Shown here: positions 3,402 through 5,619 of the stretch, piece by piece
How positions within the stretch are numbered: position 1 is the first letter of the stretch
Layout: each line of letters opens with the position of its first letter
Assembly (NCBI GenBank): GCA_020442095.1
Contig: JAGRKY010000429.1
Span: forward strand, 1 to 7,772
Direction of reading: 5' to 3'
From: Bauldia sp.
GTDB lineage: Bacteria > Pseudomonadota > Alphaproteobacteria > Rhizobiales > Kaistiaceae
DNA length: 7,772 nt
The notes under the pieces: model-generated
Told to the model about the DNA's origin: nothing
The model's input: only the letters and a program-made list of their open reading frames with translations
Database searches by the model: none
Translations under genes and position numbers: made by a program

Positions 3402-3510
3402 CCACCCTAAACACCCTGAAGACTGAGGGGGCGGAAAGCCTTCAAGGCGATTCTGCCGGCCGGCCGCGTGGGGGATTGCGTGACCGGGAGCTGCGAGGAG
3501 GCCGCCCGGG

Positions 3511-3921
3511 CTACCAGCCCCACTGGAAGGTCGCGCCGGCCTTGCCGTTGCCGTTCTGGACGACATTCGCCTTGGTCTTCTTGCCGAACTGGAAGAGGCC
3601 ATAGGCGTTGTTGTTGCCGTTCTGCTGGAGCGTGCCCTTGTGGCCGTTGCCCTGCTGGTGGACGAGGCCGAAATTGCCGGTGCCCTTCTGGGCGAGGCCG
3701 GCGGCGTTGTTCTTGCCCTTCTGCTTGATGCCGCCCTTCTTCAGGCCATCGAAAGAGCCGAAGAGCTCGAGGGTGGAGGCAAGCGCCCTGGTCTGTTTCG
3801 CGTCGCGGGGGATGTAGGTGAAGGACGCCGAGCCGGCGGCGGCCGGCGTGGCAAGCGCTGCGGCGCCGATCATCACGGCGGCGACGGCGGCAGCAACAGT
3901 GCGGGTCGTCCTGGCCATCAT
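3511..3921 (-). CDS. Second curlin repeat protein (curli-like amyloid subunit or nucleator)
   Basis: A 136-residue exported protein. A signal peptide spans about residues 1-29 (basic ARTTR, hydrophobic alanine-rich core, PAAA-G cleavage). Residues 30-66 are a non-repetitive segment containing IPRDAKQTRALASTLELFGS. From Q67 come six uninterrupted 11-residue units of the form Q-x-G-x-x-(N/H/T/K)-x5, then a partial seventh, QWGW, at the C-terminus. This Q-G-N spacing is that of curlin repeats, which stack as a beta-solenoid amyloid outside the cell. ATG 3921 (or the adjacent ATG 3918) is preceded by GAGGAG; a longer frame from 4020 lacks a ribosome site and would run through the promoter array. 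It has fewer repeats than the other curlin plus an N-terminal segment, which would suit a CsgB-like nucleator or cap, but nothing proves it. It is transcribed separately from csgH, from which a strong terminator divides it. Confidence 0.82.
   Translation of the reverse strand: MMARTTRTVAAAVAAVMIGAAALATPAAAGSASFTYIPRDAKQTRALASTLELFGSFDGLKKGGIKQKGKNNAAGLAQKGTGNFGLVHQQGNGHKGTLQQNGNNNAYGLFQFGKKTKANVVQNGNGKAGATFQWGW
3526..3723 (-). repeat. Six 11-residue curlin repeats within the second curlin gene
   Basis: Six consecutive 33-nt units encode residues 67-132, each starting with Gln and having Gly at position 3. Position 6 is N, N, H, N, T, K in order, so the Asn ladder degrades towards the C-terminus. 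There are no insertions or deletions between units. Confidence 0.85.
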
Positions 3922-3975
3922 CGTGATTCTCCTCGTTCGCTTGGGGTCGCCGGGTTCGTCCAGCCGATGAACGCG

Positions 3976-4030
3976 ACTATGGGGGAGCCGCCCTGAACCC
4001 GATCGGAACCCGACATTCATCCGGGGTTAA
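3976..4030 (-). promoter_or_regulatory. Promoter region of the second curlin gene with shared 11-bp repeat array
   Basis: On the minus strand, four 11-bp elements run from 4030 down to 3987: TTAACCCCGGA, TGAATGTCGGG, TTCCGATCGGG, TTCAGGGCGGC. The same array stands before the other curlin gene (5213-5256). Over the 36-bp core the two copies agree at 28 positions by my count, with identical spacing. A possible -10, CATAGT, follows at 3981-3976. The array ends 66 bases before the start codon, in the place expected for an activator overlapping the -35 region. The regulator is not identifiable from this window. Confidence 0.65.
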
Positions 4031-4105
4031 TGGCCCGGCCGGGGTTTCGCCCGCTTGGTGGCGGCGGGGATTTGACGGCGGCGCGGCCCGGCGGATGTGT
4101 CGTCG

Positions 4106-4143
4106 AAAAAAAGAGGGGCCCCCTGGGGGAAAGGGGACCCCTC
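4106..4143 (-). terminator. Intrinsic terminator after csgH
   Basis: On the minus strand, GAGGGGTCCCC (4143-4133) pairs with GGGGGCCCCTC (4123-4113), an 11-bp stem with one G-U wobble and a 9-nt loop. It is followed directly by seven Ts (4112-4106). This is a textbook Rho-independent terminator, beginning 39 bases past the csgH stop codon. It separates the csgA-csgH unit from the second curlin gene. Confidence 0.9.
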
Positions 4144-4163
4144 GATCTGACTCGTACCCTCGA

Positions 4164-4181
4164 GGGGGCGGGGAGGGAGGG
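4164..4181 (+). other. G-quadruplex-forming motif abutting the csgH stop codon
   Basis: The plus strand reads GGGGG-C-GGGG-A-GGG-A-GGG, four G-runs with single-base loops, the strictest form of the quadruplex motif. It ends at 4181, immediately next to the csgH stop codon (4184-4182). The plus strand is the template for csgH, so the mRNA here is the C-rich complement. Whether it folds in the cell is not known. Confidence 0.5.
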
Positions 4182-4619
4182 TCAGATTGCGCCGCCGACG
4201 CGCTCGCTGCATTCGAGCGTTTCGCCGTCGACGGTGATGGTAAGGCGGGCGTCGTAGATGGTGGTGCCGTTGCTGCCGAGCATGACCTGGCCGAGCGTCG
4301 CGGTCTCGCCGGCAACAAGGGCGAAGTCACCGCCCTGGCTGACCTTGGCGCCGCCACCGCCACCGGTATTGCGGACCGTGAAGCGGTAGGAGCCGGCGGC
4401 GTCGACATCGGCGGAGACGAGGCCCTGCAGCGTCAGCATGCCGCCGCTCGCACCGGAATTGATGACGCAGCGGACCGGGGCATGGGCGCCGCGGGAAGCG
4501 CCGGGCTCCCGGTCGACCGAGGCGGCGGGGGTGGCCGCGCCGAGGGCGGCGCCGATCACGCCGACACCGAGCATGAGCGGGATGGCGCGGGCCGCGAGGC
4601 GTCTGGTGTTGTCGAGCAT
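4182..4619 (-). CDS. csgH: Curli assembly chaperone CsgH
   Basis: A 145-residue periplasmic protein of the CsgH family, the alphaproteobacterial counterpart of CsgC, which blocks premature curlin amyloid formation through a small immunoglobulin-like beta-sandwich. Residues 1 to about 33 are a signal peptide (RRLAARAIPLMLGVGVIGAALGAATPAA). The mature part shows the strand and loop pattern I associate with the family: VRCVINSG, SYRFTVRNTGGGG, then QGGDFALVAGETATLGQVML, and YDARLTITVDGETLEC. C51 and C137 are the only cysteines, one in the first strand and one in the last, and may form a disulfide. ATG 4619 is chosen because AGGAG lies eight bases upstream; a longer in-frame stretch up to 5057 runs antisense-like through csgA and is not real. 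It lies 95 bases downstream of csgA in the same unit and ends at a strong intrinsic terminator. The mature N-terminal spacer before C51 is not recognisable. Confidence 0.85.
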   Translation of the reverse strand: MLDNTRRLAARAIPLMLGVGVIGAALGAATPAASVDREPGASRGAHAPVRCVINSGASGGMLTLQGLVSADVDAAGSYRFTVRNTGGGGGAKVSQGGDFALVAGETATLGQVMLGSNGTTIYDARLTITVDGETLECSERVGGAI

Positions 4620-4652
4620 GGGTCTCACTCCTGATCTCTCTGCTTCGAGCGG

Positions 4653-4689
4653 GGCCGGGAAGCGCACTGGCGGGCAACGCTTCCCGGCC
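4653..4689 (-). ncRNA. 12-bp perfect stem-loop between csgA and csgH
   Basis: GGCCGGGAAGCG (4653-4664) and CGCTTCCCGGCC (4678-4689) are exactly complementary, with a 13-nt loop. On the minus strand no T-run follows, and the csgH ribosome site begins about 20 bases beyond it. It therefore looks like a cis RNA element (processing, stabilising or attenuating hairpin) rather than a full terminator. It is likely to favour csgA message over csgH. Confidence 0.6.
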
Positions 4690-4695
4690 GGCCGA

Positions 4696-4715
4696 ATCCG
4701 CGCTTTGCCGCGGAT
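4696..4715 (-). other. Small stem-loop overlapping the csgA stop codon
   Basis: ATCCGCG (4696-4702) and CGCGGAT (4709-4715) pair around a 6-nt loop. Base 4715 is the last base of the csgA TGA stop. With the 12-bp hairpin that follows, the csgA transcript would have two tandem stems at its 3' end. Confidence 0.45.
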
Positions 4716-5149
4716 CAGTTGCAGGTCTGGACGAAGGCGGCGACGTTGCCGTGGCCGGACTGGATCACGTCGCCGCGGCAGCCGTTGCCGACCTGGACGC
4801 CGGCGGCGATGTTGCCGTTGCCGTCCTGGGTGATGATGGCGTTGTGGTTCGAGCCGAACTGGCCGATGCCGGCGGCGTTGTTGCGGCCGCGCTGGAAGGT
4901 GTCGCCGTAATTGTTGTAGCCGTCCTGGCCGATCGCCGAGGTGTTGCGCTTGCCGTATTGCTCGGCGATACCGGTATTCCAGGAGCCGTTCTGGTGGATG
5001 CCGATCCGGTTCTTCTTGCCGACCTGGTTGCCGCCGGCGCTGTTCGACCAGCCCCATTGCTCGATCTTGATCTTGCCGGCCATGGCGGGCGCCGAGCCAA
5101 GGGTGAGGACTGCGACGAGGGCGCTGCCGATGAGAAATGTGCGGGTCAT
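4715..5149 (-). CDS. csgA: Curlin repeat protein (major curli-like amyloid subunit)
   Basis: A 144-residue exported amyloid subunit. A signal peptide covers about residues 1-24 (MTRTFLIGSALVAVLTLGSAPAMA). After six residues, ten perfect 11-residue units run from Q31 to V140 as Q-x-G-x-x-N-x5, with a partial eleventh, QTCN, at the end. The Q-G-N spacing matches curlin half-repeats; two units would make one beta-solenoid rung, so about five rungs, as in enterobacterial CsgA. Almost the whole mature protein is repeat, which favours the major subunit. ATG 5149 has AGGAG eight bases upstream. Transport through a CsgG-type pore is expected, but no csgG, csgE or csgF lies in this window. It is the first gene of a unit with csgH (4182-4619), under an array of 11-bp elements (5213-5256). 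The two C-terminal cysteines, C124 and C143, are unusual for a curlin. CsgA versus CsgB identity is inferred from length only. Confidence 0.85.
   Translation of the reverse strand: MTRTFLIGSALVAVLTLGSAPAMAGKIKIEQWGWSNSAGGNQVGKKNRIGIHQNGSWNTGIAEQYGKRNTSAIGQDGYNNYGDTFQRGRNNAAGIGQFGSNHNAIITQDGNGNIAAGVQVGNGCRGDVIQSGHGNVAAFVQTCN
4730..5059 (-). repeat. Ten uninterrupted 11-residue curlin repeats in csgA
   Basis: Ten 33-nt units encode residues 31-140. Position 1 is Gln and position 3 is Gly in all ten. Position 6 is Asn in eight, with His in unit 7 and Cys in unit 9. Some units at the DNA level share short tracts such as the complement of gccgttctg, so copy number could change by slippage. Confidence 0.88.
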
Positions 5150-5203
5150 GCTTCCGTCTCCTTGGTTGTGCGGTGGCGCCAGCGGGCTGGACACGGTCAC
5201 GGG

Positions 5204-5256
5204 TTTACGACCCCGGCCGGGAACCCAGCCTGAACCCGCCGTTCATCCGCGGTTCA
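5204..5256 (-). promoter_or_regulatory. Promoter region of csgA with 11-bp repeat array
   Basis: On the minus strand the elements TGAACCGCGGA, TGAACGGCGGG, TTCAGGCTGGG and TTCCCGGCCGG run from 5256 to 5213 without gaps. They correspond element by element to the array before the second curlin gene (3987-4030). A weak possible -10, CGTAAA, lies at 5209-5204. The array ends 64 bases before the start codon. The elements may also be read as two TGAAC half-sites facing two GTTCM half-sites about one centre. The array also sits just upstream of the clpS promoter candidate. Confidence 0.65.
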
Positions 5257-5261
5257 CCGAC

Positions 5262-5289
5262 TTGCAGCAGCCCGCGGGCGGCGTATCTT
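5262..5289 (+). promoter_or_regulatory. Candidate housekeeping promoter of clpS
   Basis: TTGCAG (5262-5267) and TATCTT (5284-5289) are separated by 16 bp and resemble -35 and -10 hexamers. Transcription would start near 5296, giving a leader of about 18 bases before the clpS ATG. The call is by hexamer resemblance only. Confidence 0.4.
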
Positions 5290-5313
5290 CATCAGGTCAC
5301 CGGAGAGATGCCG

Positions 5314-5619
5314 ATGCGTGACACCGACGAAAAGACCATCACCAAGACCCGGGTGAAGATCGAGCGGCCGCGCCTGCACAAGGTGATCCTGGTCAATGAC
5401 GACTACACGCCGCGCGAATTCGTGGTGAAGGTGTTGAAGGCCGTGTTCTCGATGAGCGAGGACCAGGCGGCGCGGGTGATGCTCACCGCCCATATCAAGG
5501 GGGTCTGCGTGGTCGCCGTCTATACCGCCGAGATCGCGGAGACCAAGGCGACCGAAGCCACCGATGCCGGACGCAGCGCCGGCTATCCGTTGCTCTTCAC
5601 CACCGAGCCGGAGGAATAG
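5314..5619 (+). CDS. clpS: ATP-dependent Clp protease adaptor ClpS (ClpS2-like)
   Basis: A 101-residue cytosolic adaptor that hands N-degron substrates to the ClpAP protease. The core signature VILVNDDYTPREFV (25-38) holds the residues that bind the substrate's alpha-amino group (N28, D29, D30). H60 in MLTAH supplies the third contact, matching N34/D35/H66 of the E. coli protein at a constant offset of six. The C-terminal ETKATEA...GYPLLFTTEPE is also typical. R34 stands where E. coli has the pocket gatekeeper Met40. Short N-terminus, YTPREF and the FTTEPEE ending fit the second ClpS paralogue (ClpS2) known in alphaproteobacteria. ATG 5314 is preferred over ATG 5308 because GGAG (5302-5305) is then eight bases away. 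It is divergent from csgA. Its last 37 bases overlap the 3' end of the convergent TetR gene (5583-6182). clpA is not in the window. Confidence 0.93.
   Translation: MRDTDEKTITKTRVKIERPRLHKVILVNDDYTPREFVVKVLKAVFSMSEDQAARVMLTAHIKGVCVVAVYTAEIAETKATEATDAGRSAGYPLLFTTEPEE

Follow-up and report, generated by a model that had tools for sequence, protein, structure and literature searches.

In E. coli, curli are controlled by EnvZ/OmpR via CsgD, and promoters of the PhoB/PhoP/PmrA type carry 11-bp direct repeats to which the regulator binds head to tail, replacing the -35 element. The csgD gene has been reported missing from all Alphaproteobacteria (PMC3521004), and since curli of this class would be made without CsgD, their control has so far been an open question. 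The motif closest to the elements described here is TTCA-N7-TTCA (Motif 3), which a 2013 study of Sinorhizobium meliloti 1021 put forward as the binding site of FeuP, a protein described there as needed to activate at least 14 genes. In S. meliloti, 12 genes have Motif 3 upstream and five of these depend on FeuP; three further FeuP-dependent genes, including feuN, have it at a fitting distance (PMC3616915).

Two Curlin Genes Are Preceded by a Conserved Dyad

The window analyzed here is a stretch of 7,772 nucleotides from Bauldia sp. Curlin repeats and CsgH are both present in it (PF07012, PF21112), as expected of a curli system; the CsgG exporter was absent among the scanned window genes, and PF03783 was found in 1 of the 15 related curli genomes searched. 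The features concerned, all on the minus strand, are the following.

5220..5256, minus strand: operator of the curlin c2/csgH unit, TGAAC-N6-TGAAC-N5-GTTCA-N6-GTTCC, with half-sites at 5252-5256, 5241-5245, 5231-5235 and 5220-5224
5202..5207, minus strand: inferred -10 of the c2 promoter, TAAACC, its TA beginning 12 bp past the last half-site
4715..5149, minus strand: curlin c2 gene, 144 amino acids with two Curlin_rpt stretches (PF07012, E=5.5e-19)
4182..4619, minus strand: csgH, curli assembly protein gene, 3′ of c2 (PF21112, E=2.5e-27)
4113..4143, minus strand: intrinsic terminator-like hairpin of 12 pairs followed by T7, between csgH and curlin c1
3994..4030, minus strand: operator of curlin c1, TTAAC-N6-TGAAT-N5-GTTCC-N6-GTTCA, with half-sites at 4026-4030, 4015-4019, 4005-4009 and 3994-3998
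3974..3979, minus strand: inferred -10 of the c1 promoter, TAGTCG, its TA beginning 14 bp past the last half-site
3511..3921, minus strand: curlin c1 gene, 136 amino acids (PF07012, E=4.8e-5)

Because the terminator-like hairpin lies between csgH and c1, this layout suggests that curlin c1 forms its own transcription unit.

An earlier note on this DNA had described two 44-bp stretches, at 3987-4030 and 5213-5256, each as four 11-bp elements, and both were found at these places. A T at position 1 and a G at position 10 are indeed constant across all eight 11-mers of the window; the consensus that the note gave, TKMANNNCGGR, fits in full only the first two of each array (4/8) and not the other four. 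The second way in which the note had read the array, as a dyad, turned out to be the correct one, since the mirror-image half-sites are conserved in 33 sites. The operator consensus is TGAAC-N6-TGAAY-N5-KTTCA-N6-GTTCM (3994-4030 and 5220-5256 of the window, minus strand), and it stands upstream of 33 of the 35 curlin genes in the window and 17 loci; both curlin genes that lack it belong to one Rhodobacteraceae locus. Presence in relatives had been set beforehand as a test, and outside the window the element was found at 31/33 curlin genes. Twelve positions are invariant in 33/33 sites (T1, A3, A4, T12, G13, A14, A15, T24, C25, G33, T34 and T35), and for each of the 33 sites none of 500 shuffles of the 230-bp upstream region scored equally. 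The c2 operator fits the dyad at 20/20 positions and the c1 operator at 18/20 (0/500 shuffles as good in either case). At up to two mismatches the dyad pattern was matched in 16/17 genomes and a reversed control pattern in 0/17. Within the window, TTCA-N7-TTCA has 7 matches with at most one mismatch, where 1.86 would be expected; 0/200 shuffles reached this count. Four of these seven matches are the operator arms, one of them exact (c2, 5242-5256, plus strand, 0 mismatches) and three with 1 mismatch each (c2, 5220-5234, minus strand; c1, 3994-4008, minus strand, and 4016-4030, plus strand).

We considered, and rejected, the idea that the upstream region as a whole had been duplicated recently. 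Identity between the c1 and c2 copies is 28/37 within the dyad, consistent with the 28/36 that the note had counted for its core, and falls to 12/60 in the adjoining upstream flank and to 26/60 in the downstream one, so that the similarity is concentrated in the dyad; the c1 and c2 paralogs also retain differing half-site letters across genera. The repeats upstream of both curlin genes are real and conserved.

The Dyad Lies Where a -35 Element Would Be Expected

A consensus scan of 3480-5320 found no -35/-10 pair of the sigma-70 type, and no -35 hexamer is shared beneath the curlin operators. The TA of the inferred -10 lies exactly 12 bp past the site in 25/33 curlin promoters and in 28/29 promoters of the feuP operon; in 4/33 curlin sites, that of c1 in the window among them, it lies at 14. 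Altogether the TA falls 12-14 bp past the downstream arm in 30/33 curlin sites, and the arm sits on the -35 region. As far as sequence allows, the check on transcription starts proposed in the earlier note came out in favor of the element, the inferred -10 being downstream of it. The same spacing appeared in an order-wide sample of 29 loci picked by pattern alone, with TA at 12 in 20/31 dyad orientations and a left-side TA at 12 in just 2/31. The left arm was also considered as a divergent promoter at curlins and rejected, as TA at 12 on the left occurred in 0/33 curlin sites. Among the non-curlin sites of 17 genomes (54 orientations, many with two mismatches), 11 had the TA at 12 and 10 had it at 14, indicating that some of these sites are not real promoters. 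The best explanation of the sequence is that the curlin c1 and c2 promoters would be -35-less promoters activated via two inverted boxes.

Each Arm Is a Candidate FeuP Box

Each arm of the dyad is one TTCA-N7-TTCA box. The same box was found 200-620 bp upstream of feuP (feuN region) in 33 of the 35 loci read, where every other TTCA spacing from 0 to 20 was seen once at most. After removal of four duplicates and one paralog, and addition of the G005 feuP locus, 30/31 distinct loci carry it, the sole miss being L207. The Hyphomicrobiales feuP operon has one box without an inverted partner, which counts against reading the double box as a FeuP site. A search for the full dyad upstream of OmpR-type genes of G002 and G007 gave 0/26 loci (best 5/18 mismatches; several genes mis-called), and this seemed to speak against autoregulation, until feuP itself turned out to be preceded by the single box. 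Among 24 chvA/ndvA promoters in the family of G009, one showed a near-dyad with 3 mismatches (gene starts were called imperfectly) and three more, read by eye, a single box; the site is therefore not uniformly carried by a known FeuP target, and the list of targets is not simply conserved.

S. meliloti Ak57, in which feuN-feuP-feuQ is annotated, provided an anchor and the name FeuP, a name that was not given by database names among the best 120 of 7882 matches. Its FeuP is 77% identical to Bauldia FeuP, its feuN promoter reads ATTCA-N6-ATTCA with TA at 12, and the promoter of its ndvA-type glucan exporter gene reads TGAAT-N5-GTTCA-N6-ATTCA with TA at 14 (both offsets read by eye). The recognition-helix region DSNTIEVF[V/I]GRLRKK is present in S. 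meliloti and in 14/15 frame-intact FeuP orthologs of curli genomes, the remaining one having one substitution; it differs in the one paralog examined and in the best match of G014. By sequence FeuP belongs to the PhoB/PhoP/PmrA-type family, with BasR (8jo2, 4s04) among its PDB matches.

FeuP and the Operator Occur Together

A FeuP ortholog with 74-100% identity was found in 15/17 curli genomes (the G011 match crosses one TAG). In G005 feuP is frameshifted, with pieces of 81 and 72% identity, and in G014, the only locus without the dyad, the best FeuP match is 40%. Matches to CsgH were found class-wide in a further 6/385 genomes, including G002 again and G351 (below the family cut-off). Of the five new genomes, four encode FeuP (68-73%) and carry an operator in front of a curlin gene, namely G352 (1/18 mismatches, 0/1000 shuffles), G486 (4/18, 9/1000), G584 (3/18, 0/1000) and G351 (3/18, 2/1000); in G486, G584 and G351 the outer left half-site is missing, a point against the proposal. 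The fifth, G655, had neither FeuP (best 39%) nor an operator (7 mismatches, 730/1000 shuffles). In all, 20/20 feuP-bearing curli genomes have the curlin operator (feuP is frameshifted in one, and three operators have three half-sites), and 2/2 without feuP lack it. The window's own genome would be expected from its relatives to encode FeuP.

Beyond curli, in 385 Alphaproteobacteria the dyad (at most 1 mismatch) was found in 32/73 genomes with a FeuP match at E<=1e-85 vs. 6/312 without one (Fisher p=1.2e-20, kinship ignored); 6 of the 38 dyad genomes thus have no such match, which counts against the FeuP reading. In 18/32 dyad genomes with FeuP, feuP has a dyad at a distance of 330-1345 bases upstream; of these 20 dyads, 12 have TA at 12 and 8 do not, and these 8, like the TA at 14 of c1 in the window, count against the proposal. 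An order-wide sample gave an exact dyad in 93/271 genomes with FeuP and 2/26 without close FeuP (p=0.004, kinship ignored; 13 of these 26 assemblies are just 0.9-1.6 Mb), a co-occurrence that is weak alone because nearly all members have FeuP; the 2 genomes with an exact dyad and no close FeuP speak against the FeuP reading.

Proposed Control of Curlin Expression by FeuP

By sequence, position and distribution the curlin switch is most likely a FeuP landing site, and we consider it very probable that FeuP~P activates the curlin promoters through a double FeuP box. Each element would consist of two TTCA-N7-TTCA direct repeats, head to head about one center, and FeuP would serve as the OmpR/PhoP-type response regulator of a FeuQ-FeuP two-component system that periplasmic FeuN modulates. 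A head-to-tail FeuP~P dimer would occupy the downstream box on one DNA face and cover the position of the missing -35; the -10 would follow 12 bp further (14 for c1), and bound FeuP~P would activate transcription. A second dimer on the inverted upstream box may raise occupancy, output or both. Curlin c2-csgH and curlin c1 would be turned on jointly by an envelope or osmotic signal read by FeuQ; co-control of two transcription units by one regulator, as the earlier note had suggested, is probable in view of the matched operators and their steps of one helical turn.

Dyad-type sites also occur before many other genes, often encoding small exported proteins. We lean, by a little, to the wider view that FeuQ-FeuP may regulate surface functions widely among Alphaproteobacteria, with an operator code of two forms, and may be CsgD's substitute as the direct curli switch; in such a code the single TTCA-N7-TTCA found upstream of feuP in Hyphomicrobiales would be one form, and the inverted double box would mark high-output surface genes. 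On this wider view, envelope or osmotic stress would lead FeuP to drive, in addition to curli, many hsp20-like genes and small exported proteins that have yet to be named.

Alternative Explanations

FeuP bound to the dyad could instead repress curlin transcription by covering the promoter, and the operator does overlap the -35 region. We regard this as unlikely, as no -35 hexamer is shared underneath, no sigma-70 type promoter pair was found, the geometry upstream of feuP is identical, and the role described for FeuP in S. meliloti is that of a required activator (PMC3616915).

It is very unlikely that the dyad is bound by a different OmpR-family response regulator of the envelope, for example CenR or ChvI. 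TGAAC-N6-TGA includes TGA-N8-TGA, the motif reported for CenR in Rhodobacter sphaeroides (PMC9275681), and CenR also regulates envelope genes. However, many of the CenR sites listed read T(G/C)(A/G)C..TGA and 28/31 of them are upstream of the -35 (PMC9275681), whereas the curlin arm replaces it; the ChvI motifs TTGC-N3-GCAA and N-GCC-N8-GCC (PMC9731502) do not match. Neither regulator accounts for the box upstream of feuP or for the co-occurrence with FeuP.

The physiological curli regulator could also be a paralog of FeuP, akin to SMc02366, that shares its DNA specificity, and sequence alone does not separate the two. Paralogs with 50-55% identity occur in curli genomes G001, G005, G006, G011, G013 and G015, and in S. 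meliloti the similarity between SMc02366 and FeuP is 60% (PMC5539429). We nevertheless hold this to be highly improbable: full-length paralogs (>=50%) are listed in 6/17 curli genomes, and G016 adds a partial match, whereas a feuP gene is present in all 16 dyad-bearing genomes (one frameshifted); the single paralog locus that was read, L189, has no box in front of the gene and a different recognition-helix region.

That the arms are LexA boxes, and curli an SOS-repressed function, is scarcely credible, even though the alphaproteobacterial LexA box is GTTC-N7-GTTC and both c2 arms and one c1 arm literally match it or its complement. The first base of the third half-site is G in 20/33 sites (C 10, T 2, A 1) and the second T in 23/33; in the feuP boxes (n=29) the base preceding TTCA is mostly A, not G (18 A and 11 G before the first half-site, 19 A and 10 G before the second); and operator presence tracks FeuP.

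The one-orientation tandem array of four 11-bp units with a dedicated activator, to which the note had been led by the constant T1 and G10 of the eight window units, has next to no probability, because the conserved form is the dyad, with G10 kept in only 8/33, 16/33 and 25/33 in the first three units and the mirror-image half-sites retained in relatives, and because similar sites before feuN-feuP and many other genes leave no room for a dedicated regulator.

Comparison With Known Systems

The earlier note knew of no described operator of this form. The single arm is in fact already published as a candidate FeuP box; a search of one literature library, covering main texts, found neither an inverted double FeuP box nor a link to curli, and these two are what is new here. 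The curlin operators share with S. meliloti Motif 3 the half-site, the 11-bp step and the place upstream of the transcription start, but comprise two boxes head to head where the available passages of that paper describe a single box and mention feuN, and no curlin genes, among its genes (PMC3616915). A weakly defined motif of one species (12 genes) thereby becomes an operator with fixed promoter geometry, order-wide and beyond, from which the FeuP regulon can be read in many genomes.

Like PhoB/PhoP/PmrA promoters, the curlin promoters have an 11-bp direct repeat 12 bp before the -10 TA and no shared -35; unlike them, they have the half-site RTTCA and a second, inverted box upstream. The CenR motif is alike in its 11-bp step, TGA core and envelope regulon, and its sites differ in half-site letters, in promoter position and, in the portion of the source available, in having no link to feuN-feuP (PMC9275681).

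FeuP, a regulator of envelope stress and osmolarity, would be a candidate curli switch where the usual one is absent. With FeuP named, the sensor (FeuQ) is one already studied, a modulator (FeuN) is known and S. meliloti FeuP offers a model that can be cultured, so that the question of curli control becomes directly testable. Common to E. coli and to the proposal is that an osmolarity-answering response regulator of the OmpR family governs curli; unlike the E. coli route through CsgD, FeuP would act directly on the curlin promoters. If true, curli would have come under an osmosensor independently of the EnvZ/OmpR-CsgD route in E. coli, a convergence worth noting.

Conservation of a double inverted repeat upstream of curlin genes

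The genes of the curli locus in the window and an accompanying hairpin are located as follows, with clpS starting divergently from curlin c2:

5149-4715, minus strand: curlin c2
4619-4182, minus strand: csgH
4143-4113, minus strand: terminator-like hairpin
3921-3511, minus strand: curlin c1
5314-5619, plus strand: clpS

DNA resembling the clpS region was seen by eye upstream of curlin at locus L001 and, less clearly, at L002. The 44-bp stretch that an earlier note had placed before each curlin gene of the window is present where it was reported. That note had divided each stretch into four tandem 11-bp units, TKMANNNCGGR; T at position 1 and G at position 10 indeed recur in all eight 11-mers, but the full pattern fits only four of them. 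A CsgH-based scan of named genome contigs yielded 17 loci from Bauldia, Devosia, Mesorhizobium, Pelagibacterium, other Hyphomicrobiales and one Rhodobacteraceae, with the gene order c2-csgH-c1 in all except L006, whose stretch stops before the second curlin. Among the 35 curlin genes examined, the window's two included, 33 are preceded by the dyad TGAAC-N6-TGAAY-N5-KTTCA-N6-GTTCM, which retains 17-20 of its 20 positions and sits 55-82 bp ahead of the start codon (131 bp in one case, where the start codon is uncertain), and for each of these sites 0 of 500 shuffles scored as well. The element is thus conserved in relatives as a pair of head-to-head boxes and not as tandem units, since the mirror half-sites are near-invariant and the tandem positions vary. 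The dyad is absent before both curlins of the Rhodobacteraceae locus L014 (10 and 11 of 20 positions).

The window's two sites match at 28/37 positions inside the dyad, at 12/60 in the flank directly upstream and at 26/60 in the flank directly downstream. At dyad positions 26 and 37 the c1 sites read C and A in 15 of 16 cases, and the c2 sites A and C in 14 of 17. Given this concentration of identity in the dyad, the paralog-specific letters and the conservation, the operator pair looks old and the element itself looks to be under selection. The c1/c2 letter split holds across genera in the 33 operators, and it may give the two sites different affinities for the candidate regulator, FeuP.

FeuP as candidate regulator

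Each arm of the dyad, YTCA-N6-GTTCA, is an 11-bp direct repeat, and such repeats are typical of OmpR-family regulators. The target genes led us to propose FeuP, the response regulator of the FeuQ-FeuP two-component system, ahead of the match of the arm to Motif 3. In a Sinorhizobium meliloti start-site study, Motif 3 (TTCA-N7-TTCA) precedes 12 genes, of which five depend on FeuP, and is also found at a fitting distance in three more FeuP-dependent genes, feuN included; it is put forward there as a candidate FeuP site (PMC3616915). According to further papers, FeuQ-FeuP senses osmolarity and controls ndvA, and FeuN modulates the system negatively (PMC12486126; PMC5539429; PMC11103875). By its sequence, the arm of the curlin dyad is this known candidate site.

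FeuP combines a receiver domain with a Trans_reg_C domain, and BasR/PmrA (8jo2, 4s04) is among the PDB entries it matches in sequence. An annotated S. meliloti Ak57 record (3.7 Mb, labelled plasmid) carries feuN-feuP-feuQ; its FeuP shares 77% identity with the protein from Bauldia and has a recognition-helix region the same as in 14 of 15 orthologs (one substitution at L188). The Ak57 feuN promoter reads ATTCA-N6-ATTCA with the TA that starts the inferred -10 at 12, and that of an ndvA-type gene, annotated as a glucan ABC transporter, reads TGAAT-N5-GTTCA-N6-ATTCA with TA at 14 (both offsets by eye).

Promoter geometry at curlin and feuP

As a test of autoregulation, the 200-620 bp preceding feuP were read in 35 loci; TTCA-N7-TTCA is present in 33 of them, and each other spacing from 0 to 20 occurs at most once; after four duplicate loci and one paralog were removed and the feuP locus of genome G005 was added, the box was present in 30 of 31 loci, the miss being L207. 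In nine of the loci where the feuP start was also detected, a simple pattern picked out a small exported ORF immediately ahead of feuP, in the feuN position. TA lies exactly 12 bp past the last half-site in 25 of 33 curlin sites (13 bp in one, 14 bp in four), in 28 of 29 sites upstream of feuP, and in 20 of 31 orientations from 29 order-wide exact dyads chosen regardless of genes. The sites share no -35 element, and none was found by a consensus scan of window positions 3480-5320.

Co-occurrence of FeuP and the dyad

FeuP of 74-100% identity is encoded in 15 of the 17 curli genomes; in G014, the sole genome whose curli locus lacks the dyad, the best match is 40%. Devosia sp. A8/3-2 (G005, feuP locus L222) has a frameshifted copy in two frames (pieces of 81% and 72%), yet keeps the TTCA-N7-TTCA box with TA at 12; the frameshift is either an assembly error or the mark of a decayed regulator. 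A PF21112 (CsgH) profile search of 385 class-wide genomes gave six matches, among them the already known G002 and, below the family cut-off, G351. Four of the five new curli genomes combine a FeuP of 68-73% identity with an operator ahead of a curlin gene: G352 (1 mismatch of 18; 0/1000 shuffles as good), G584 (3; 0/1000), G351 (3; 2/1000) and G486 (4; 9/1000), the outer left half-site being missing in the last three. The fifth, G655, showed neither FeuP (best 39%) nor a curlin operator (7 mismatches; 730/1000). Combined, the operator is present in 20 of 20 curli genomes with FeuP versus 0 of 2 without (p=0.004).

Across the 385 genomes, with FeuP presence defined as a match at E<=1e-85, a dyad with at most one mismatch occurs in 32 of 73 genomes with FeuP versus 6 of 312 without (p=1.2e-20, kinship ignored); those six genomes count against FeuP. 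Among the matches listed, at least 18 of the 32 have a dyad 330-1345 bases upstream of feuP, and 12 of the 20 such dyads show TA at 12 toward feuP, the others having it at 13, 14 or 16 or lacking it. For 12 class-sample dyads the stretch as far as feuP was examined, and each time it contains an ORF with an exported-type start.

A wider regulon and the possible role of the second box

The dyad (at most two mismatches) was found in 16 of the 17 curli genomes, with 2-9 matches per strand (a single site may count on both strands), and not in G014; a reversed control pattern gave no match in the 17. In a stricter exact form the dyad is present in 95 of the 297 order genomes examined, and the control pattern in none. 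In 40 further stretches from these genomes and 29 order-wide loci, the neighbours of the dyad include hsp20-like genes paired with a divergently oriented alpha/beta hydrolase, an exported protein with an SH3 domain encoded beside an epimerase-like gene, and numerous small proteins whose starts resemble signal peptides; the SH3 domain comes from a domain search and the remainder from informal annotation of translations. The hsp20-like neighbour was seen at L064, L070, L073, L081, L082 and L086 (start judged by eye), the hydrolase at L055, L061 and L078, and the SH3/epimerase-like pair at L054, L083 and L087. The recurrence of the same genes beside dyads in several genera suggests a conserved FeuP regulon, and the dyad is a regulon element rather than a curli-only switch. 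In G357, G668 and G680 of the class sample the contig that bears feuP also has a dyad some 2.1 kb downstream of where feuP starts, and further genes near it may be FeuP targets.

Among the results against the proposal, a scan of 24 chvA/ndvA promoters from the family of G009 gave a near-dyad in only one, with a single box seen by eye in three more. The feuP-operon promoters of Hyphomicrobiales carry a single box, which shows that a FeuP promoter can do without the inverted one. That the upstream box might be a divergent promoter for the curlins was rejected by TA-offset analysis. At L217 (G352), two curlins diverge from a short intergenic region that holds a near-perfect dyad plus an extra TTCA-N7-TTCA box, possibly a single operator for both directions.

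Proposed mechanism and comparison with known curli systems

Regulators of the BasR/PmrA type bind as a dimer head to tail across the -35 position. By analogy, we infer that a phosphorylated dimer of the putative FeuP of the window's genome would bind the downstream box head to tail over the place of the -35 and activate transcription by retaining RNA polymerase at a -10-only promoter, while the inverted upstream box would bring a second dimer onto the same DNA face. Both curlin units would then respond to FeuQ. The operator, its promoter geometry and its co-occurrence with FeuP are observed here, and FeuP binding, activation, the contribution of the second box and the signal are proposed.

Neither the double inverted box nor its use at curli was found in the literature searched; those papers examined that pair FeuP with curl-type terms mostly meant root-hair curling or else cited E. 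coli curli, with no curli-FeuP link in the text examined. The arm was already known as a candidate FeuP site; what appears new is the inverted pairing of two such boxes and its presence before curlin genes. The CsgG exporter family PF03783 was detected in 1 of 15 curlin-CsgH genomes searched (G002 only; set G001-G009 and G012-G017), so these curli loci are mostly without the known outer-membrane exporter, in agreement with PMC3521004. The same paper reports alphaproteobacterial curli without csgD, a gap that the proposed FeuP-curli link would fill.
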